64,000 nt of DNA from Pseudoxanthomonas sp. PXM02. Its GTDB lineage: Bacteria > Pseudomonadota > Gammaproteobacteria > Xanthomonadales > Xanthomonadaceae. The stretch spans positions 558,001 to 622,000 of the forward strand of contig NZ_JACVAK010000001.1 in assembly GCF_014851805.1 (NCBI RefSeq), written 5' to 3'. Both the position numbers and the translations under genes were made by a program. Position 1 is the stretch's first letter; each line of letters opens with the position of its first letter. This document shows positions 1,612 through 56,456 of this stretch, one piece after another. Under the pieces are notes generated by a model that saw only the letters and a list, made by a program, of their open reading frames with translations, was not told the origin of the DNA and ran no database searches.

Positions 1612-3675
1612 ATGGCCGCAAACTTCGATGGGCTGAGATTCAGCCACTGGCAGACCGAGGTACGCGACGACGGCATCGTCGTGCTGTCGTTCGATCGCCA
1701 GGGCGCCAGCGTCAACGCGTTCTCCCAGGACGTGCTGATCGAACTGGCCGACATCATCGAACGCCTGGCCATCGATCCGCCGAAGGGCGTGGTGCTGCGC
1801 TCGGCCAAGGCCAGCGGCTTCATTGCCGGCGCCGATCTGAAGGAATTCCAGGAGTTCGACCGCAAGGGCACCGTCAACGACGCGATCCGTCGCGGCCAGG
1901 CCGTGTTCCAGAAGCTGGCCGAACTGCCCTGCCCCACGGTCTCGGCGATCCACGGCTTCTGCATGGGCGGCGGTACCGAGATTTCGCTGGCCTGCGACTA
2001 CCGCGTGGCCAGCAGCGACCCGTCCACCCGCATCGGCCTGCCGGAAGTGAAGCTGGGCATCTTCCCCGGCTGGGGCGGCAGCGCGCGCCTGCCGCGCCTG
2101 GTCGGCGCGCCGAAGGCGATGGACATGATGTTGACCGGCCGCACGCTGTCGGCCAGTTCGGCCAAGGCCATGGGCCTGGTCGACAAGATCGCTGAGCCGG
2201 CCGTGCTGGTCGACGCCGCGGTTGCCCTGATCGCCTCGCGCACGAAGCGCGCCTTCAAGCAACGCTTCACCGGCTGGATCAGCAACAGCTGGCTCGCCCG
2301 CCAGCTGCTGGCGCCACAGATGACCAAGCAGGTCGTGCGCAAGGCGCCGAAGGCGCACTACCCCGCACCGTACGCACTGATCAACGTGTGGAAGACCGCC
2401 GGCGGCAAGGGCATCCAGGGCCGCCTGGACGCCGAACGCAAGGCGGTGGTGAAACTCGCCGGCACGCCGACCGCGCGCAATCTGATCCGCATCTTCTTCC
2501 TGACCGAGCGGCTGAAGGGTCTCGGCGGCAAGGACCATGGCATTGCGAACGTGCATGTCGTCGGCGCCGGCGTGATGGGTGGCGACATCGCCGCATGGTC
2601 CGCCTACAAGGGCTTCAACGTCACCCTGCAGGACCGTGAGCAGCGGTTCATCGACGGCGCTTTGACGCGCGCGCAGGAGCTGTTCGCCAAGAAGGTGAGA
2701 GACGAAAGCAAGCGCCCGGCCGTGGCCGCGCGCCTGAAGGGCGACCTGGCCGGTGATGGCGTGCCGCAGGCCGACCTGGTGATCGAAGCGATCATCGAGA
2801 ACCCGGAAGCCAAGCGCGATCTCTACCAGACCGTCGAGCCGCGCCTGAAGGCCGACGCGCTGCTGACCACCAATACCTCGTCGATCCCGCTGACCGAACT
2901 GCGCGAACACATCCAGCGTCCCGCCCAGTTTGCCGGCCTGCACTACTTCAACCCGGTCGCACTGATGCCGCTGGTGGAGATCGTGCAGCACGACGCGCTG
3001 GATGACGCCAACGTCCGTCGCCTGGCCGCGTTCTGCAAGGCGCTGGACAAGTTCCCGGTGCCGGTGGCCGGCACGCCGGGCTTCCTGGTCAACCGCGTGC
3101 TGTTCCCGTACATGCTGGAAGCCGCGACGGCCTACGCCGAAGGCATCCCCGGCCCGATGATTGACAAGGCGGCGGTGAAGTTCGGCATGCCGATGGGTCC
3201 GATTGAACTGATCGACACCGTCGGCCTCGACGTCGCGCAAGGTGTTGGGGCGGAACTCTCGCCCTTCCTCGGCCTGACGCTGCCCGCCGCACTGGCGACG
3301 GTGGAACCCGGCAAGCGCGGCAAGAAGGACGGCCAGGGCCTGTACAAGTGGGAGAACGGCAAGCCGGTGAAACCGCAGGTGCCGTCCGACTACAAGGCGC
3401 CCGACGATCTGGAAGACCGCCTGATCCTGCCGCTGCTCAACGAAGCCGTCGCCTGCCTGCACGATGGCGTGGTCGCCGACAGCGATCTGCTGGATGCCGG
3501 CGTGATTTTCGGCACCGGCTTCGCGCCGTTCCGGGGCGGCCCGATCGAACACGTCAAGGCCGTCGGCCCCGACGCGCTGCTGGAAAAACTCAAAGCGCTG
3601 CAGGCCCGCCACGGCGACCGCTTCGCGCCGCGCCCGGGCTGGGACAACCCGGTGCTGCGCCAGGCGACGGTGTAA
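1612..3675 (+). CDS. Bifunctional enoyl-CoA hydratase / 3-hydroxyacyl-CoA dehydrogenase (FadB/FadJ type)
   Basis: Multifunctional fatty acid beta-oxidation subunit acting with a thiolase on acyl-CoA chains. The 687-aa product has an N-terminal crotonase domain (about 1-190), with oxyanion loop FIAGADLKEF (70-79) and FCMGGGTE carrying the catalytic-type Glu at 123. It is followed by an NAD-binding domain with GAGVMGG at 318-324 and a 3-hydroxyacyl-CoA dehydrogenase domain with the HYFNP motif at 444. Length is close to the usual 700-715. The ATG at 1612 (MAANFDGLRF) is preferred over an in-frame ATG at 1570, but neither has a strong ribosome binding site. No thiolase gene is adjacent, so it may be a stand-alone FadJ-like protein. 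Confidence 0.9.
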   Translation: MAANFDGLRFSHWQTEVRDDGIVVLSFDRQGASVNAFSQDVLIELADIIERLAIDPPKGVVLRSAKASGFIAGADLKEFQEFDRKGTVNDAIRRGQAVFQKLAELPCPTVSAIHGFCMGGGTEISLACDYRVASSDPSTRIGLPEVKLGIFPGWGGSARLPRLVGAPKAMDMMLTGRTLSASSAKAMGLVDKIAEPAVLVDAAVALIASRTKRAFKQRFTGWISNSWLARQLLAPQMTKQVVRKAPKAHYPAPYALINVWKTAGGKGIQGRLDAERKAVVKLAGTPTARNLIRIFFLTERLKGLGGKDHGIANVHVVGAGVMGGDIAAWSAYKGFNVTLQDREQRFIDGALTRAQELFAKKVRDESKRPAVAARLKGDLAGDGVPQADLVIEAIIENPEAKRDLYQTVEPRLKADALLTTNTSSIPLTELREHIQRPAQFAGLHYFNPVALMPLVEIVQHDALDDANVRRLAAFCKALDKFPVPVAGTPGFLVNRVLFPYMLEAATAYAEGIPGPMIDKAAVKFGMPMGPIELIDTVGLDVAQGVGAELSPFLGLTLPAALATVEPGKRGKKDGQGLYKWENGKPVKPQVPSDYKAPDDLEDRLILPLLNEAVACLHDGVVADSDLLDAGVIFGTGFAPFRGGPIEHVKAVGPDALLEKLKALQARHGDRFAPRPGWDNPVLRQATV

Positions 3676-36300: not shown

Positions 36301-36747
36301 CTACGGCCTGACGTCGCAAGAACCCTTCACGGTGGCGAGATACTGATGGGGACTTACGCCGGTCGCCGCACGGAATGCGCGCGAAAAATGGCTGTGGTCG
36401 AAGTAGCCCAGGTCCGTCGCCATCGTCGCCAACGGAACCCTCCCCGTCCGCAACAGACGCTTCGCTTCCAGCACGCGTCGCCAGCGCACGTACTGCATGG
36501 GGCTCATCCCGGTCTGCGAGCGGAAGGTACGCGCGAAGTGGAATCGGCTGACATGCGATGCCTCGGCGATGTCCTTCAGCGATATGGGCTCGCGGAACCG
36601 GAACTCGATGTAGACGAGCGCCGAGGTCACCGACCTGGCTTTCGAGCATCCACGCTGGAATGGAGCAGGCCCATGGGGCATCGACGGAGTGCCGCCAATG
36701 CCCTCCTGCATCCGAAACAGATTCCTCGGATTGGATCGTAGAGGCAT
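36301..36747 (-). CDS. Short AraC-type regulator, paralogue 1
   Basis: A 148-aa protein with a C-terminal AraC DNA-binding domain (about 45-140): FREPISLKDIAEASHVSRFH, TGMSPMQYVRWRRVLEAKRL and LGYFDHSHFSRAFRAATGVS. There is only a short N-terminal lead and no cupin sensor. It is strikingly similar to the AraC gene at 50041-50502 (shared GMSPMQYVRWRRVLEAKR and LGYFDHSHFSR). It is the last gene of the minus-strand run 45375-36301. The start at 36747 has a weak ribosome binding site. Confidence 0.8.
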   Translation of the reverse strand: MPLRSNPRNLFRMQEGIGGTPSMPHGPAPFQRGCSKARSVTSALVYIEFRFREPISLKDIAEASHVSRFHFARTFRSQTGMSPMQYVRWRRVLEAKRLLRTGRVPLATMATDLGYFDHSHFSRAFRAATGVSPHQYLATVKGSCDVRP

Positions 36748-45656: not shown

Positions 45657-46550
45657 ATGGATATAGAAGAGCTTCGTACCTTCGTCGAGCTTGCCGATGC
45701 CGGCGGCGTGACCCATGCCGCGCAGAGGCTCGGCATCTCGAAGTCGCTCGTCAGCCGACGCCTGAGTCGCCTGGAGGCGGAGCTCGGCGTGCAGCTTGTC
45801 GCACGCAATTCGCGTGGCGGCTCGCTCACCGAAGCAGGCACGACCTTCCGCGACCACGCGGCGCGCGCGTGCGCGGAGATAGACGCCGCCAAGGATGCGA
45901 TCCAGCCGGGGGGAGATCTGGTCGGGCGCCTGAGGATCGCGGTTCCGCTCTCGTTCGGGCCCACGCACTTCGCGCCGGTGCTGGCCAGCATGGCGCACAC
46001 GCATCCCCGCCTTCATATCCATACCGTGTACAGCGATCGCTTCGTCGATCTCATCGCGGAAGGATTCGACTGCGCCATCCGGCTTGGCGACCTGCAGGAC
46101 TCCAATCTGGTCGCGCGGCGCGTCGGCACCATCTATCGGGCGCTCGTCGCCAGTCCCGCCTACATCGAAGCCCATGGCTCACCGGAAACACCGGACGAAC
46201 TGGCCGCGCACGAGGCGCTCATGCAAGGAACCGAGACCTGGCGTCTGACCGATGGCGACCAGATCCTCACAATCAACCCGCGGGGACGCTTCAAGGCCGA
46301 CAACGGCGTTGCGCTCGTTGCCGCAGCGGTGGCGGGTGTCGGCATCGCATCGGTACCTGAAGGTCTTGTGCACGACCACCTTGTCTCTGGCGCCCTCGTC
46401 CCCGTAATGACCCGCTATCCCCCGCCGGAGACCGGCGTCTACGTCATCCGGCCGCCCGGCCTCCACCCGTCCCGCAAGGTACGGGCGCTCGCTGAAGAAC
46501 TCATCGAGCACTTCAGGAATGTCCCGAACTTCCTGAGCGCCCTTCGCTGA
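45657..46550 (+). CDS. LysR-family transcriptional regulator
   Basis: A 297-aa LysR regulator, MDIEELRTFVELADAGGVTH, with AGGAA before the ATG. HTH at 1-60 (RLGISKSLVSRRLSRLEAEL), substrate-binding domain downstream (LRIAVPLSFGPTHFAPVLAS, GVGIASVPEGLVHDHLVSGA). Divergent from the pirin-RidA-isochorismatase-DoxX-amidohydrolase-MFS-porin-RidA-AraC run and therefore its likely regulator. Effector unknown. Confidence 0.9.
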   Translation: MDIEELRTFVELADAGGVTHAAQRLGISKSLVSRRLSRLEAELGVQLVARNSRGGSLTEAGTTFRDHAARACAEIDAAKDAIQPGGDLVGRLRIAVPLSFGPTHFAPVLASMAHTHPRLHIHTVYSDRFVDLIAEGFDCAIRLGDLQDSNLVARRVGTIYRALVASPAYIEAHGSPETPDELAAHEALMQGTETWRLTDGDQILTINPRGRFKADNGVALVAAAVAGVGIASVPEGLVHDHLVSGALVPVMTRYPPPETGVYVIRPPGLHPSRKVRALAEELIEHFRNVPNFLSALR

Positions 46551-50040: not shown

Positions 50041-50502
50041 CTAGCCCCCGCGCTCGCGGCGGGTCCGCTGCGCGGCGAGAAGATACTGGTGCGGCCCCAT
50101 GCCGGTGAACGACCGGAATGACCGGGAGAAGTGGCTGTGGTCGAAGTACCCGAGATTCAGCGCGATCGTCGCCAGCGGATTGCGTCCGGCCCGGAGCATG
50201 CGTTTCGCCTCCAGCACGCGCCGCCAGCGGACATACTGCATCGGGCTCATCCCGATCTGTTCGCGGAATATCCTGGCGAAGTGGAATTTGCTGGCGCACG
50301 CGATCCTGGCGACATCGTCCAGCGTGACCGGCTCCCGGAAGTTCGACTCGATGTAGGTCATGGCGCGGATGACGGACCGCATCCTTACGTCCCGTCGCGC
50401 GGGCAAGCAACTGCCGGGATGATCGGATATGCGGCCATCCGGACGCACGGTATCGGCCCGGTCAGGCAAAGAAGACCGTACGTTCAACGCGCTTGCGTTC
50501 AC
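50041..50502 (-). CDS. Short AraC-type regulator, paralogue 2
   Basis: A 153-aa protein from a GTG at 50502, with GAGGGAAGA directly before it. It has only an AraC DNA-binding domain (about 48-145; NFREPVTLDDVARIACASKF, IGMSPMQYVRWRRVLEAKRM, LGYFDHSHFSRSFRSFTGMG) after a short unstructured lead. Very similar to the AraC gene at 36301-36747. Divergent from the LysR gene at 50731, with a palindrome in the gap. Confidence 0.8.
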   Translation of the reverse strand: MNASALNVRSSLPDRADTVRPDGRISDHPGSCLPARRDVRMRSVIRAMTYIESNFREPVTLDDVARIACASKFHFARIFREQIGMSPMQYVRWRRVLEAKRMLRAGRNPLATIALNLGYFDHSHFSRSFRSFTGMGPHQYLLAAQRTRRERGG

Positions 50503-50581
50503 TCTCTTCCCTCACACGGCTCATCACGACGATGAGCCACCGAGCATACGCACCGCAGTCGGTTTTCCCGCCTCCGGGTGC

Positions 50582-50598
50582 TTGGACGATCCGTCCAA
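50582..50598. promoter_or_regulatory. Palindrome TTGGACG-ATC-CGTCCAA (site 1)
   Basis: Perfect 7-3-7 palindrome in the divergent gap between the AraC gene (start 50502) and the LysR gene (start 50731), 133 nt before the LysR start. Two more copies of the half-sites lie at 52515 and 52808. Confidence 0.75.
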
Positions 50599-50730
50599 TG
50601 CATTGAACGCTTCCGGGGAAACGACGGAGCGCTCAACGACGCGGTACGCTCGCAGGTATCCTTGGTCAGGTTCCGCGCCCTGCAGTTCACCGTCTTCATC
50701 CGGCGCCCAGCCCATCTTCGCGAGCGGCCC

Positions 50731-51642
50731 ATGCTTGATCTGAATGACTTCCTGTTCTTCGTGAACATCGTCGACAAGGGCGGATTCACGGCCGCGAGCC
50801 GCGCGCTCGAGATTCCGAAGTCGACGCTCAGTCATCGGATGATGAAACTCGAGGAGGATCTCGGCACGCGCCTGCTGCACCGGACCTCGCGACATGTCGG
50901 CGTGACCGAGGCGGGCCGGGATTTCTACAACCATGCCGTGTCGGTACTGCGCGAAGCGGAGATGGCGGAGATCGTGGTACGTCAGCGGCTGTCCGAACCC
51001 AGCGGCGTGGTGCGGGTCACGGCCGCGCTGTCGACGATGCAGTACGCGCTGTCGGACATCATCGCGGACTTCCTGCTGAAGTACCCCAAGGTCAACATCG
51101 TCGCGATCGCGACCGACGCTTCCATCGATATCGTCAGGGAGAACTTCGACGTGGCGATCCGCGGGCATTCGGATCCGCTCCCCGACTCGTCCCTGGTGCA
51201 GCGCCGCCTGATCACGCAGAACTTCCACCTGTATGCCGGCGTGTCGTATCTGGAGGCAAACGGCGAGCCCCGGACACCGGACGAACTGCTGGGCCACGCA
51301 TCGCTGTTCATGGTGCGGGGAGATGCACCCCAGACCTGGCGCCTGCGCCACATCCGCGGCGAGGGCGAAGACGTGGTCGTTCCACTTGCACCGCGGCTGG
51401 TGAGCGACGACGTGTCGACCCTGCAGAAGGCGGCGGTGGATTGCCTGGGTATCGTCGCCCTGCCGCCCTATGTCTGCCGCGATGCCGTCACTTCCGGCAA
51501 GCTCCGCCGCATCCTGCCGGACTGGGCTGCGGGCTCCGGAACACTCACCGCGCTGGTGCCGCACCGGCAAGGCATGCTGCCGTCGGTGCGCGCCTTCCTC
51601 GATCACGTCGGCGCCGAACTTCCGAAGCTCGGCGCCTGGTAG
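50731..51642 (+). CDS. LysR-family transcriptional regulator, local
   Basis: A 303-aa LysR regulator, MLDLNDFLFFVNIVDKGGFT. HTH at 1-60 (SRALEIPKSTLSHRMMKLEE), substrate-binding domain downstream (VRVTAALSTMQYALSDIIAD). ATG at 50731. A TTGGACG-N3-CGTCCAA palindrome lies upstream of its own gene and twice in the promoter region of the next genes (SDR and amidohydrolase 2), so it is a good candidate for the protein that binds these sites. It is convergent with the SDR gene. Confidence 0.9.
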   Translation: MLDLNDFLFFVNIVDKGGFTAASRALEIPKSTLSHRMMKLEEDLGTRLLHRTSRHVGVTEAGRDFYNHAVSVLREAEMAEIVVRQRLSEPSGVVRVTAALSTMQYALSDIIADFLLKYPKVNIVAIATDASIDIVRENFDVAIRGHSDPLPDSSLVQRRLITQNFHLYAGVSYLEANGEPRTPDELLGHASLFMVRGDAPQTWRLRHIRGEGEDVVVPLAPRLVSDDVSTLQKAAVDCLGIVALPPYVCRDAVTSGKLRRILPDWAAGSGTLTALVPHRQGMLPSVRAFLDHVGAELPKLGAW

Positions 51643-51657
51643 CGATCGACGGCGGAA

Positions 51658-52398
51658 TCAGGTCACCTGGCCGCCATCGACGTTGAGGATGGCGCCGGTG
51701 ATGTGCCGCGCCGCGGGACTGGCGAAGAACGCCACCGCCGCCGCCACGTCAGTCGGCTCACCGAACCGGCCGAGCGGCGACAGCGCACGCTGGAAGTCCG
51801 CGAACTCGCCGTTAGCAGGATTCGACTCCGTGTTCGTCGATCCCGGCTGCACCAGATTCACGGTGATGTCGCGGGGACCCAGCTCGCGCGCGAGGCCGCG
51901 CGTGAAGGACTGCATCGCCGACTTGGTCATGTAGTAGACCGAACCTGGCTCGCCGACGATACGGTCGGCGCCCGCCGAGCCGATCGTGATGATGCGCCCG
52001 CCTGCCTGCAGGTGGGGAATGGCGGCCTGCGCAGCGAGGATCGGCCCGCGGACATTGATCCGCAGCATGGTATCGATCTCGTCGGCGCTGATGTCCGCGA
52101 TCAGGTTGTAGAGCGCAACTGCAGCGTTGTTCACCAGGATGTCCAGGCCACCCAGTACGCCGACCGCTTCGGCGACCGAGCGCTTGATCGCGTCCGGGTC
52201 ACCGCTGTCGGCCTGGAGGGCGACCGCCTTGCGGCCCTTCGCTTCGATCGCGCTGACGACATCGGCGGCGCGATCGGCCGATCCCGCATAGGTGATCGCC
52301 ACATCCGCACCCTTCTCGGCCAGTGCCAGTGCGATGGCCGCACCGATGCCGCGTGATGCGCCAGTCACCAGCGCGCGCTTGCCTGCCAGTTCACTCAT
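51658..52398 (-). CDS. Short-chain dehydrogenase/reductase
   Basis: A 246-aa classical SDR. Cofactor motif TGASRGIG at 12-19, NNAA at 90-93, catalytic Ser141 and Tyr155-x3-Lys159 (SVYYMTKSAM). AAGGAGAAGG before the ATG. Its upstream region contains two TTGGACG-N3-CGTCCAA palindromes shared with the divergent amidohydrolase gene. Substrate unknown. Confidence 0.9.
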   Translation of the reverse strand: MSELAGKRALVTGASRGIGAAIALALAEKGADVAITYAGSADRAADVVSAIEAKGRKAVALQADSGDPDAIKRSVAEAVGVLGGLDILVNNAAVALYNLIADISADEIDTMLRINVRGPILAAQAAIPHLQAGGRIITIGSAGADRIVGEPGSVYYMTKSAMQSFTRGLARELGPRDITVNLVQPGSTNTESNPANGEFADFQRALSPLGRFGEPTDVAAAVAFFASPAARHITGAILNVDGGQVT

Positions 52399-52514
52399 GT
52401 CCTTCTCCTTCTCATTGTGAGGAATGCGTTACCGGCATGACGACACTGCATCTGCCGGGTTCCGCTTGAGAGGCAAACTGGGTTACCCACGGCAGCTTCG
52501 CAAGCGTTCGCGCG

Positions 52515-52531
52515 TTGGACGCTCCGTCCAA
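52515..52531. promoter_or_regulatory. Palindrome TTGGACG-CTC-CGTCCAA (site 2)
   Basis: Perfect palindrome, extending to 9-3-9 with flanking CG/CG (52513-52533). It lies 117 nt upstream of the SDR start. Same half-sites as sites 1 and 3. Confidence 0.75.
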
Positions 52532-52807
52532 CGAATGGGACGGTCATCGCTGAACGGTGACGGATGAGGCGCGGAATGCAGATAAATCCAGTCGTACCAG
52601 GCGATCCACGCCATCCCGCACAGGCGATCGGATGCCTGTAGCGCCACGTTCCTGGTGGCGTCTCGCTGTGTCCGTTGACCAGGAACGCGTCCGTATTGCA
52701 CCGCGCGGCAACGCTGCGAGGCCTGCGCATGACGTGCATGCGCAGTGAGGACGCAACGCGCTGCAAGAGCGTAGGCCGCAAGCGGGCCGCGTGGAAGCGC
52801 ATCGACA

Positions 52808-52824
52808 TTGGACGCATCGTCCAA
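52808..52824. promoter_or_regulatory. Palindrome TTGGACG-CAT-CGTCCAA (site 3)
   Basis: Perfect palindrome, extended to 8-3-8 (52807-52825). It lies about 126 nt upstream of the amidohydrolase start. Same half-sites as sites 1 and 2. Confidence 0.75.
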
Positions 52825-52949
52825 TCCTGTTGACACCGACGGCGCGTCTTCGACCCCTCTTCGCGACCTATGCTGGCGTTGCCGCATCCCTTGCGGAACT
52901 CCACGGCACCCGCGCAACCCGCAGCCCTTCTTCAGGTACGAGGATCGAG

Positions 52950-54743
52950 ATGATCAGGACACTACTTGCTGCGCTGCTGGCGGCGCATGGCATCCAGAGC
53001 GCCCACGCACAGTCCACCCCGTCAGCGGCCGGCGCGGACCTGATCGTCTTCAACGCGAAGGTCTTCACTGGCAATCAGGCACAACCCGAGGCCTCTGCCG
53101 TGGCCGTCAAACAGGGACGTATCTACGCCGTCGGCACGGATGCCGACATCCTCGGCCTGAAGAACACCGGCACGCGCGTGATCGATGCAGGCAACCGCCG
53201 GCTGATCCCCGGCATCAGCGACGCCCACACCCACGTACTGAACGAAAGCCATTACACCTACACCCTGCGTTGGGACGGCGTGCCGACGCTGCGCCGTGCG
53301 CTCGACATGCTGGCCGAGCAGGCGAAGCGGACACCCAAGGGCCACTGGGTCAAGGTGATCGGAGGCTGGTCGCCCTACCAGTTCAAGGAGAACCGCTTTC
53401 CCACCATGGAGGAACTGCGGAAGGCCGTGCCCGACCACCCCATGGTGGTGCAGTACGCCTACAACCGCGCTTTCCTGAACCCGCAGGCGATGGCCGCGTT
53501 CGGCGTGGGCACCGATCGGTTCCCGACCCTGCCGGGCACCGAGTTCGAAAAGGACGCGCAAGGCAACTACACCGGCGTGGTGCACGGCTACACCTTCGTC
53601 TTCGTCACTCTGGAAACGATGGTGCCGCAGCCCAGCTTCGACGAGCAGGTGAGCGCGCTGACCCACACCATCCACGCGCTCAACCGCTTCGGCGTCACCT
53701 CGGCGATCGATGCCGGCAACCGCGGCTATCCCCTCGCCCAGCCCACCGTCGACGCACTCGCGCGCGACAACCGCCTGAACATCCGCCTGCCCTTCATGGA
53801 CATGCAGTTCGGCGGCACCGAGATGGTCGATGCGCAGATCGACGCGATCACGCGCACCGCGCCCATCAGTCCCGGACAGAACCTGCACCCCACCCTCGCG
53901 CATGGCCACGCCTACCAGGGCGCCGGCGAGGTGCTGCGGATGGAGCTGCATGACCACGAGAACTTCGACCAACCGGCGATCATCATCGATCCGGACACGA
54001 TGCGACGCCATGTCGAGCGGGACGTCGCCAAGCTGGTGCAGCGGCGGATCCCGTTCCGCATGCATATCAGTTACGACGAGAACATCACTCCGTTCCTCGA
54101 TGCGATGGAAACGCTCAACGCGACGATGCCGCTCGACGGCCTGCGCTGGAGCATCGAGCACGCGGAGACGATCAGCCCGGCCAATATCGCGCGGGTCAAG
54201 GCGCTCGGCGGCGGCATTGCGCTGGATCCCAAGATGGCCCTGCACGGCGATGGTTTCATCAAGACGCATGGCCGCGAGAAGGCGCTGCAGACACCGCATC
54301 TGCGCCACCTCGTCGACAGCGGCGTTCCGCTGGCCATGAGCACCGACGCGTTCCGTGCCGCCACATTCAACCCGTGGGTCGCGATCAGCTGGATCGTCTC
54401 GGGAAAGTCGGTGTCGGGTTCGGAAGTATTGGCCAAGGACAACCGCCTCTCCCGCGCCGAGGCGCTGAACCTGTTCACCCGCGGCCCGGCGTGGTTCATG
54501 CACCAGGAGCACGCGATGGGCAGGATCGCGCCCGGCCACCTGGCGGACTTCGCGCTGCTGGACAGGGACTACTTCACCGTGCCCGAGCACCAGATCGCGT
54601 CGGTGGCCTCGGTGCTCACCGTGATGGATGGCCGCGTGGTGTTCGGCGCGGAAGACTTCAGCCCGCTTTCGCCGCGTCTGCCCCACATCCTCCCGGCCTG
54701 GTCGCCGATCAAGCACTACGGCGGCTATTACGGCGCCCAATGA
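52950..54743 (+). CDS. YtcJ-like amidohydrolase 2, secreted
   Basis: A 597-aa metal-dependent amidohydrolase with Sec signal MIRTLLAALLAAHGIQSAHA and GAGG 6 nt before the ATG. Metal motifs: SDAHTHVLNESH, RMHISYDE, SIEHAET and MSTDAFR. Paralogous to the enzyme at 40488-42461, sharing VIDAGNRRLIPG-like and GGIALDPKMAL-like blocks, but ending with HYGGYYGAQ without a His/Cys tail. Likely exported; substrate unknown. Controlled by the divergent promoter with the TTGGACG palindromes. Confidence 0.85.
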   Translation: MIRTLLAALLAAHGIQSAHAQSTPSAAGADLIVFNAKVFTGNQAQPEASAVAVKQGRIYAVGTDADILGLKNTGTRVIDAGNRRLIPGISDAHTHVLNESHYTYTLRWDGVPTLRRALDMLAEQAKRTPKGHWVKVIGGWSPYQFKENRFPTMEELRKAVPDHPMVVQYAYNRAFLNPQAMAAFGVGTDRFPTLPGTEFEKDAQGNYTGVVHGYTFVFVTLETMVPQPSFDEQVSALTHTIHALNRFGVTSAIDAGNRGYPLAQPTVDALARDNRLNIRLPFMDMQFGGTEMVDAQIDAITRTAPISPGQNLHPTLAHGHAYQGAGEVLRMELHDHENFDQPAIIIDPDTMRRHVERDVAKLVQRRIPFRMHISYDENITPFLDAMETLNATMPLDGLRWSIEHAETISPANIARVKALGGGIALDPKMALHGDGFIKTHGREKALQTPHLRHLVDSGVPLAMSTDAFRAATFNPWVAISWIVSGKSVSGSEVLAKDNRLSRAEALNLFTRGPAWFMHQEHAMGRIAPGHLADFALLDRDYFTVPEHQIASVASVLTVMDGRVVFGAEDFSPLSPRLPHILPAWSPIKHYGGYYGAQ

Positions 54744-54796: not shown

Positions 54797-55393
54797 TCAC
54801 TCCGCGCTGCTGCGCTTACGGAACTGCGCGGCCTTATGCCGGTTGCCGCACTGGGCCATGCTGCACCAGCGCCGCTTGTGCGACTTGGTGCGGTCGTAGA
54901 ACCACAGGATGCAGTCGGGGTGTTCGCACTGCCGGACCAGGGCGAAGTCGCCTTCCGCCAGCAGGTGGGCCGCGGCTTCGGCGACCGGGCCGAGCATCGA
55001 CACGGCCCCGTCGCCGCGTGCGACACGAGCCAGCGTTACCGCGCCCGTATCGTCCCGTTGAAGAAGCGGCGCGGTGACGTACGCCTGAAGGTAGGTATTA
55101 AGACCTTCGATACCGACCGGTTCGCCCGCCTTGCGCGCGGCGATCGCTTCCCGGACCGCGGTCCTCAGTTCGCGACCGCGCATCAGTAGATCCGCAGGCA
55201 CCGGCCCGACGGGATCTGCCGGCAACACGCCCTGTCGCGCCAGCCATCGGCACACGTCTTCGGGCGTTGTCCAGTGATCGACGGTAAGGCCCTGGCTTCG
55301 CGCCTCCGTGTTGAGCAGGTCCAGCGCCAGGTGATCGCCCACCTGGGGGGCATCGGTAATGCCATTTGCTGCGCGCAGCTCCACAGCACCCAT
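54797..55393 (-). CDS. CGNR zinc-finger/ABATE transcriptional regulator
   Basis: A 198-aa regulator. The N-terminal ABATE-like domain (about 20-140; QVGDHLALDLLNTEARSQGL) is followed by a CGNR zinc finger with Cys156, Cys161, Cys177 and Cys182 (QCEHPDC, RRWCSMAQCGNRHKAAQF). Such proteins act as stress-linked transcription factors. The ATG at 55393 has AGAGG 9 nt upstream, and this Shine-Dalgarno overlaps the half-site of operator 1, consistent with autorepression. Divergent from the hydrolase gene. Confidence 0.9.
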   Translation of the reverse strand: MGAVELRAANGITDAPQVGDHLALDLLNTEARSQGLTVDHWTTPEDVCRWLARQGVLPADPVGPVPADLLMRGRELRTAVREAIAARKAGEPVGIEGLNTYLQAYVTAPLLQRDDTGAVTLARVARGDGAVSMLGPVAEAAAHLLAEGDFALVRQCEHPDCILWFYDRTKSHKRRWCSMAQCGNRHKAAQFRKRSSAE

Positions 55394-55520: not shown

Positions 55521-56456
55521 ATGAGCCTCAAAAGCCTATTTCTGGCTGCCGCCACGCTAGGCACCGCCCTCTCTGCCACGGCGGCTGAGTCCGCCAGCCA
55601 GGTTCACTACCGCACCGCCGACATCCAGGGCGTCAGCGTCTTCTACCGGGAAGCGGGACCTGCGGATGCCCCGGCCGTCCTGCTCCTGCACGGCTTCGGC
55701 GCCTCCTCCCACATGTTCCGCGACCTGATTCCGGTGCTGGCGCAGCGCTACCGCGTCATTGCCCCCGACCTGCCGGGCTTCGGACAGACGACGGTCAACC
55801 CGGGCGTCGCGTTCGATTACACCTTCGACAACGTGGCCTCGGTCATCGACGCCTTTACGGTCGAGAAGGGCCTGGATAGTTACGCGCTCTACGTCTTCGA
55901 CTACGGCGCACCCGTCGGATGGCGCCTGGCCGTGGCCAATCCCCGGAAGATCACCGCCATCGTCAGCCAGAACGGCAACGCCTATGAAGAAGGCCTCAGC
56001 GCCGGCTGGGCCGACATGCGCAAGGCGTGGGACGCACCGACCGCCGAGAACCGCGAAGCGCTGCGCCGCTTCAACACGCCGGACATGATCAAGTGGCAGT
56101 ACACCGAGGGCGTCCGCGATACCTCGCTGATCGCACCCGAGGCCTACCAATTGGCGTCCGCCGCGATCGCACGTATCGGCGACGAACCGCAGATGGACCT
56201 GCTGCTCGACTACGGCAGCAACGTCCGGCAGTACCCTCAGCTGCATGCGTTCTTCCGCGCGTACCAGCCGCCGACCCTGGCGATCTGGGGCAAGAACGAT
56301 CCGTTCTTCATTCCCGCCGGTGCCGAAGCCTACAAGCGCGACAACCCGAAGGCCGAAGTGCGTTTCCTCGACACGGGTCATTTCGCCATCGAGACGCACG
56401 GCGGCGAGATCGCGGCGAGCATGCTCGCGTTCCTCGACCGCAACATCGCGCGGTAA
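55521..56456 (+). CDS. Secreted alpha/beta hydrolase with Asp nucleophile
   Basis: A 311-aa alpha/beta hydrolase with signal MSLKSLFLAAATLGTALSAT (cleavage ATA-A). HGFGAS (57-62) is the oxyanion region. The nucleophile elbow is VFDYGAPVG with Asp127, not Ser, as in haloalkane dehalogenases and epoxide hydrolases; the acid is likely in WGKNDPFF and the His in DTGHFAIETHGG. Divergent from the CGNR regulator, whose operators lie between them. Epoxide or haloalkane substrates are inferred, not proven. Confidence 0.8.
   Translation: MSLKSLFLAAATLGTALSATAAESASQVHYRTADIQGVSVFYREAGPADAPAVLLLHGFGASSHMFRDLIPVLAQRYRVIAPDLPGFGQTTVNPGVAFDYTFDNVASVIDAFTVEKGLDSYALYVFDYGAPVGWRLAVANPRKITAIVSQNGNAYEEGLSAGWADMRKAWDAPTAENREALRRFNTPDMIKWQYTEGVRDTSLIAPEAYQLASAAIARIGDEPQMDLLLDYGSNVRQYPQLHAFFRAYQPPTLAIWGKNDPFFIPAGAEAYKRDNPKAEVRFLDTGHFAIETHGGEIAASMLAFLDRNIAR

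Follow-up and report, generated by a model that had tools for sequence, protein, structure and literature searches.

Which protein reads the three perfect TTGGACG-N3-CGTCCAA palindromes of Pseudoxanthomonas sp. PXM02, and which genes would it control? The window (the whole stretch of DNA that was analysed, 64,000 nt) carries the following genes around them.

50041 to 50502, minus strand: short AraC-type protein of 153 aa, consisting of a DNA-binding domain alone (Pfam HTH_18)
50731 to 51642, plus strand: LysR-type regulator, 303 aa, proposed binder (Pfam HTH_1 and LysR_substrate; comparative evidence)
51658 to 52398, minus strand: short-chain dehydrogenase/reductase (SDR), 246 aa, proposed target (Pfam adh_short_C2; palindrome 116 bp upstream)
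52950 to 54743, plus strand: amidohydrolase (Amidohydro_3), 597 aa, proposed target (Pfam; palindrome 125 bp upstream)

We are fairly confident that each palindrome is the core of an operator read by the LysR protein, which would regulate the lysR, SDR and Amidohydro_3 genes. The sites, their confinement to the locus, their association with a LysR subfamily and the extra half-sites described below were computed; binding is what we infer from them.

The proposed binder has the domains of a LysR-type transcriptional regulator (LTTR), an N-terminal HTH_1 (2.7e-17) and a C-terminal LysR_substrate domain (5.3e-29). It scored below the curated cut-offs of the named NCBIfam LTTR equivalogs PRK14997, YafC, AaeR and TtdR; its best score was 226.1 bits against a cut-off of 380 (PRK14997), and YafC gave 165.5 against 470. 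By sequence, the LysR family regulator in PDB 3hhg (E 4e-32), presumably CrgA, is one of the nearest full-length solved structures; the domain order is the same, but the two proteins are distant in sequence.

A second LysR-type gene (45657-46550), followed by acetolactate-synthase-like and aldehyde dehydrogenase genes, lies upstream of araC; the window search with up to three mismatches found no palindrome near its start. At the other end of the locus, a CGNR/ABATE protein (54797-55393) was considered as a binder and rejected: no match with up to three mismatches lies between its gene and the divergent hydrolase gene. By eye, the window alpha/beta hydrolase (55521-56456) resembles a hydrolase ORF in the G1468 locus (L140; LysR 61% identical), which has a 2-mismatch palindrome just upstream; the window hydrolase is without one.

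A pattern search placed all three 17-mers exactly where the preliminary description had them, between genes and within 2.3 kb.

50582 to 50598, unstranded: palindrome 1, TTGGACGATCCGTCCAA, araC-lysR intergenic
52515 to 52531, unstranded: palindrome 2, TTGGACGCTCCGTCCAA, 5' of the SDR gene
52808 to 52824, unstranded: palindrome 3, TTGGACGCATCGTCCAA, 5' of the amidohydrolase gene

The distances to the gene starts are similar: 132 bases separate site 1 from the lysR ATG (50731), 116 bases site 2 from the SDR ATG (52398, minus strand) and 125 bases site 3 from the amidohydrolase ATG (52950); 79 bases lie between site 1 and the araC GTG (50502, minus strand). The SDR and amidohydrolase genes are indeed a divergent pair, each with a site of its own, and lysR and the SDR gene are convergent. 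The placement before lysR, the SDR gene and an amidohydrolase gene was described correctly; the family name ‘amidohydrolase 2’ was not, as the Pfam match is Amidohydro_3 and not Amidohydro_2. The three-base spacers and the flanks differ among the palindromes, which therefore do not have the look of a recent duplication.

With up to three mismatches the window holds eight matches to the palindrome (shuffle mean 3.04; eight or more in 0 of 100 shuffles), and only those at 50582, 52515 and 52808 are perfect. The whole genome (4,343,195 bases in 12 contigs) adds no perfect copy to these three, and a pattern read backward as a control has none. The claim of no other copy in the window thus extends to the genome, and the case that had been named as speaking against a local regulon, copies spread genome-wide regardless of promoters, did not occur for the perfect palindrome. 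At up to two mismatches there are 25 sites genome-wide versus 32 for the backward control, so no weaker site stands out beyond the three. Among the 150 genomes searched as relatives, this one counted in, the perfect palindrome was found in only one other (G050), as a single copy located among overlapping ORFs.

To relate the sites to the regulator we compared 51 regions upstream of lysR genes, the window's own included; two distant loci (L035 and L036), which were distant matches from the LysR search of genome contigs, were dropped from all counts. The discovery set comprised 29 relatives with at least 43% identity, and a sister clade of 21 relatives (40-42.5%) served as control. A box was scored when the 18-bp sequence CGTCCA-N6-TGGACG occurred within 60 bp upstream of the lysR start codon at up to three mismatches. 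Such a box precedes lysR in 14 of the 29 relatives of the discovery set (300 shuffles: mean 0.65, maximum 4) and in 1 of the 21 of the sister clade. As the discovery set is where the motif came to light, the sole clean test is a held-out set of 13 new loci, fetched afterwards from the order of relative G760. The box was present in 11 of these 13 (shuffle mean 0.32, maximum 2), which are not 13 independent cases, as they include two same-genus pairs and two genomes that give two loci each.

Within 350 bp, the best match of 10 of the 13 held-out loci starts between −21 and −30, and 24 of 25 listed sites start at −21 to −32. Alternative gaps of 3, 4, 5, 7, 8 and 9 were found in the last 60 bp of 0 to 3 sequences in each set. 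The relatives in which the box is frequent are 43 to 63% identical to the window LysR.

When the 29 loci were scanned whole at up to one mismatch, the everted pair with gap 6 gave 12 sites versus 1, 1 and 3 in three shuffles, and everted gaps of 4, 5, 7 and 8 gave 1, 1, 0 and 1; at up to two mismatches gap 6 (32) was no commoner than gap 5 (33) or gap 8 (37). The inverted pair with gap 3 was not enriched at one mismatch (2 versus 2, 0 and 0 in shuffles), and that with gap 4 was (5 versus 1, 0 and 0). Whole-locus scans of the held-out set gave 3 sites for everted gap 6, hardly more than the 2 each for gaps 5 and 8; the inverted pair was found 3 times at gap 6 and 4 times at gap 7. The signal in this set is one of position.

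The window lysR and its near kin L081, L139 and L140 have no box in the last 60 bp at up to three mismatches. A 3-mismatch match lies at −137 in L139; in L140 there is none under five mismatches in 350 bp, with weaker intergenic matches farther off. In L081 (genome G801, LysR 63% identical) the sequence TGGACA-GAT-AGTCCA-CACCAA-TGAACA occurs at −282; it separates lysR from a gene for a GMC oxidoreductase and is 130 bp away from the start of the latter. Inspection by eye of the DNA upstream of the box in L006, L007, L009-L013 and L142-L149 revealed extra TGGAC/TAGAC-like half-sites in several of these loci, which suggests arrays longer than three half-sites.

The gap value of the relatives was taken over to the window and half-sites were sought beside the three palindromes, with 14 gaps tried. 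Each palindrome turned out to be flanked.

50571 to 50609, plus strand: operator 1, CCTCCG-N6-TGGACG-ATC-CGTCCA-N6-TGAACG (gap 6 on either flank; the outer half-sites differ from TGGACG at 2 and 1 positions)
52505 to 52542, unstranded: operator 2, CGTTCG-N5-TGGACG-CTC-CGTCCA-N6-GGGACG (outer half-sites: towards the amidohydrolase gene at gap 6, 1 mismatch; towards the SDR gene at gap 5, 2 mismatches)
52808 to 52835, plus strand: operator 3, TGGACG-CAT-CGTCCA-N6-TTGACA (a single outer half-site, facing the gene at gap 6, 2 mismatches)

The gap-6 half-sites TGAACG (one mismatch), GGGACG (one) and TTGACA (two) sum to four mismatches (random placement P = 1.15e-4), and the next best of the 14 gaps sums to eight. 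They lie on the lysR side of site 1 and on the amidohydrolase side of sites 2 and 3, that is, at site 2 away from the SDR gene. The other flank of site 1 bears an extra gap-6 half-site, CGGAGG (two mismatches), and the SDR flank of site 2 an extra one, CGAACG, at gap 5 (two mismatches); none was found on the second flank of site 3.

As every window palindrome has a gap-6 half-site, it can be taken as the inner part of a candidate LysR operator of three to four half-sites with T-N12-A spacing. This spacing occurs in the relatives' boxes and, with one to two mismatches in the outer half-site, in the window. The 7-3-7 palindrome, proposed before as the operator unit, gives way to the everted pair CGTCCA-N6-TGGACG as the conserved unit; the palindrome consists of an inner half of it plus one more half-site. 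The half-sites had also been called distinctive for not following the classical T-N11-A spacing. The departure is real, with 12 bases from T to A and specificity for gap 6; the distinctiveness is less than supposed, as T-n12-A was already known.

The genes next to lysR vary widely among the relatives, and so do the genes preceded by sites. In 40 loci we found 17 sites with up to one mismatch to the everted or the inverted pair, 13 of them intergenic and 4 inside script-called ORFs; three of the latter (L108, L148 and L149) are LysR-proximal sites. Measured from site centre to ORF start, sites lie 93 bp from a pirin gene in R. lentis (annotated; E. coli yhaK is also a pirin gene), 94 and 92 bp from isochorismatase-like genes (L041 and L141), 119 bp from a GMC oxidoreductase gene in Paraburkholderia hospita (L043), 58 and 83 bp from Fe-containing alcohol dehydrogenase genes (L045 and L047) and 109 bp from tryptophan-dioxygenase-like genes (L114 and L115). 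Products were assigned by Pfam in L041, L043, L045, L115 and L141, by annotation in L047 and by likeness to L115 in L114. The L139 locus has a neighbouring SDR gene (Pfam). The rhizobial loci of SDR and amidohydrolase homologues (L084-L089), where other LysR genes or none adjoin, have no box at up to one mismatch, so the enzymes do not bring the motif along. The comparison thus favours the LysR protein as the binder, as the preliminary description had proposed: the TGGACG box accompanies this LysR subfamily despite quite different neighbouring genes.

Matches to this LysR at E 1e-60 or better occur in 88 of the 150 genomes searched as relatives and, apart from the gene itself, are 38-47% identical; no near orthologue was found in these genomes. 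The nearest relatives are encoded elsewhere, on plasmids of Rhizobium lentis (63%) and Sinorhizobium sp. RAC02 (59%) and in genome G801 (63%); identities to the LysR relatives in G1502, G1468 and G1395 are 63, 61 and 59%. This distribution suggests that lysR was acquired horizontally. A blastn search against E. coli genomes gave no match, and family-wide searches around G801 (250 genomes) and G772 (198 genomes) returned, at the cut-offs used, only those two genomes themselves.

Mapped onto a 64-row LysR tree, the motif label changes 6 times, whereas shuffled labels average 20.6 and none of 500 shuffles was as low; the motif therefore follows the LysR phylogeny, near-copies contributing to the figure. 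The window LysR shares a supported clade with four box-bearing sequences (L040, L041, L141 and L043) and four that lack the box (L042, L081, L139 and L140). Of the 26 box-bearing sequences (up to three mismatches), 23 have PKST in the recognition helix, L009 has PRST, L151 PKSN and L017 PKSR; PKSR is found in all 21 control-clade sequences (L017 included) and in L037-L039. PKST is not confined to box carriers: L045-L047 and L110-L115, among others, have it but no box close to their own start codon, and L045, L047, L114 and L115 have a site before a neighbouring gene instead. This covariation of helix residue and box is confounded by kinship. We put forward, tentatively and as rather less than an even chance, a subfamily code in which PKST LysRs would read TGGACG half-sites as T-N12-A boxes and the PKSR clade would not; in the window species two such boxes would stand back to back, 21 bp apart, the 7-3-7 palindrome being their seam and not a dimer site.

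Could the palindromes be chance, or a repeat with no regulatory role? The three-half-site array, sought genome-wide with up to two mismatches, occurs at seven places, four of which belong to the three window sites, site 1 being matched on either strand. Two others (G000:C5:394912-394938 and G000:C4:1354598-1354624) were read by eye as xDEPTNxLD, which we take to be the likely ABC-ATPase signature; coding sequence can thus mimic the array, and that two of the seven best matches lie in probable coding sequence is a point in favour of chance. The seventh match is at C4:1142552. At three mismatches the array shows no excess except a one-strand surplus (15 and 24 on the two strands versus 16 and 11 for the control), and the everted box alone, at up to one mismatch and with coding and intergenic matches pooled, is not confined to the locus (43 places in the genome versus 16 for the control). 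Against this, the 4.34-Mb genome has its three perfect copies packed into 2.3 kb and all between genes, with spacers and flanks that differ, and the control pattern has none; chance is hardly credible here.

It is unlikely, though less so, that an unlinked regulator binds the palindromes and that lysR is merely one of its targets. A compact palindrome is usual for TetR- or GntR-type regulators, for example, and the inverted 7-3-7 form resembles a simple dimer operator, one that was not enriched around the LysR relatives at one mismatch. Against it stand the half-site at gap 6 that recurs before the lysR genes of this subfamily amid different neighbours, and the same gap-6 spacing at the window sites. 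No Pfam match for a linked TetR or GntR gene was found among the nine proteins scanned between 45657 and 56456. Binding of site 1, or of all three palindromes, by the short AraC protein is in our view very improbable. Its gene, divergent from lysR, starts 79 bp from site 1 with a TATGCT in between; araC may share the site as part of a divergent promoter, and to that extent the earlier suggestion of sharing stands. As a binder the protein was rejected: none of eight loci around AraC homologues (54-60% identical) or paralogues (62-64%) has a box at up to one mismatch, and the two weaker palindrome-like matches at homologue loci (L102 and L105) lie far off, at distances of roughly 0.8 and 1.6 kb from the homologous gene. 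AraC sites are, besides, usually direct or asymmetric. The L102 match (3206-3220, genome G029) has an exact TGGAC-N5-GTCCA core. Two more genes 62-64% identical to the short AraC protein of the window lie in the window's own genome, at 36328-36669 of the window (minus strand) and at G000:C4:944834-945232. We conclude that the LysR protein was probably the right regulator to name.

This LysR protein would recognize the half-site TGGACG, its dimer box being the everted pair CGTCCA-N6-TGGACG with 12 bases between T and A. Like-oriented half-sites in the window are 21 bp, or two helical turns, apart, so a tetramer could occupy one face of the DNA. Bound in this way, LysR would regulate three genes: it would most likely activate the SDR and Amidohydro_3 genes in response to an inducer and autoregulate lysR, although the sign of regulation is our reading. 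The signal may, at a guess, be a reactive carbonyl or aromatic compound, judging by the pirin, GMC oxidoreductase, Fe-containing alcohol dehydrogenase, isochorismatase-like and nitroreductase neighbours of lysR relatives.

No sigma-70-like promoter was found beside the operators, which fits dependence on an activator and proves little in a GC-rich genome. Downstream of palindrome 3, 53 bp from its centre, lies a TATGCT that would be compatible with an LTTR recognition site near −65 and an activation site near −35. No clear −10 was seen in the LysR and SDR promoters; −10-like hexamers with two mismatches occur elsewhere in the lysR, SDR and araC leaders.

Known systems make such an operator less alien than it first appeared, T-n12-A being a known variant of the LysR box: according to excerpts of PMC12609908, CutR of Mycobacterium sp. 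JC1 binds TTAAG-n6-CTTAA at sites IR1 and IR2 with T-n12-A spacing, and PcaQ is cited there for the same spacing. CutR shares with the proposed window system the inverted repeat, the n6 spacer, T-n12-A and the placing of a copy both at the regulator gene and at the target; it differs in its half-site and, in the same excerpts, acts as a dimer with no activation site found, whereas the extra half-sites of the window suggest a larger array (PMC12609908). E. coli YhaJ, in excerpts of PMC5031710 and PMC11739112, is a LysR-type regulator whose targets include yhaK, and in this it resembles those relatives that adjoin pirin genes; its proposed box is TCA-N7-TGA (T-N11-A), however, and not one of TGGACG half-sites. 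The OxyR-like arrays described in excerpts of PMC5002191, four half-sites in contiguous grooves bound by a LysR-type tetramer, resemble what may be present in the window, but their half-sites are ATAG-type and differently spaced. A LysR operator with TGGACG half-sites was not found in the literature searched and may be in print elsewhere; matches to TGGAC/GTCCA together with LysR were primers in the papers examined.

The operator thus appears larger and more conventional than first thought, and the locus would be a fairly ordinary, well-supported local gene switch. A LysR subfamily for which we found no described motif would gain a testable box and likely targets, and its members occur in several proteobacterial classes: in rhizobia, in Paraburkholderia, in Cupriavidus and in the window's own class. 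More generally, the unit conserved in evolution need not be the obvious palindrome, which may instead be a seam within a larger array.
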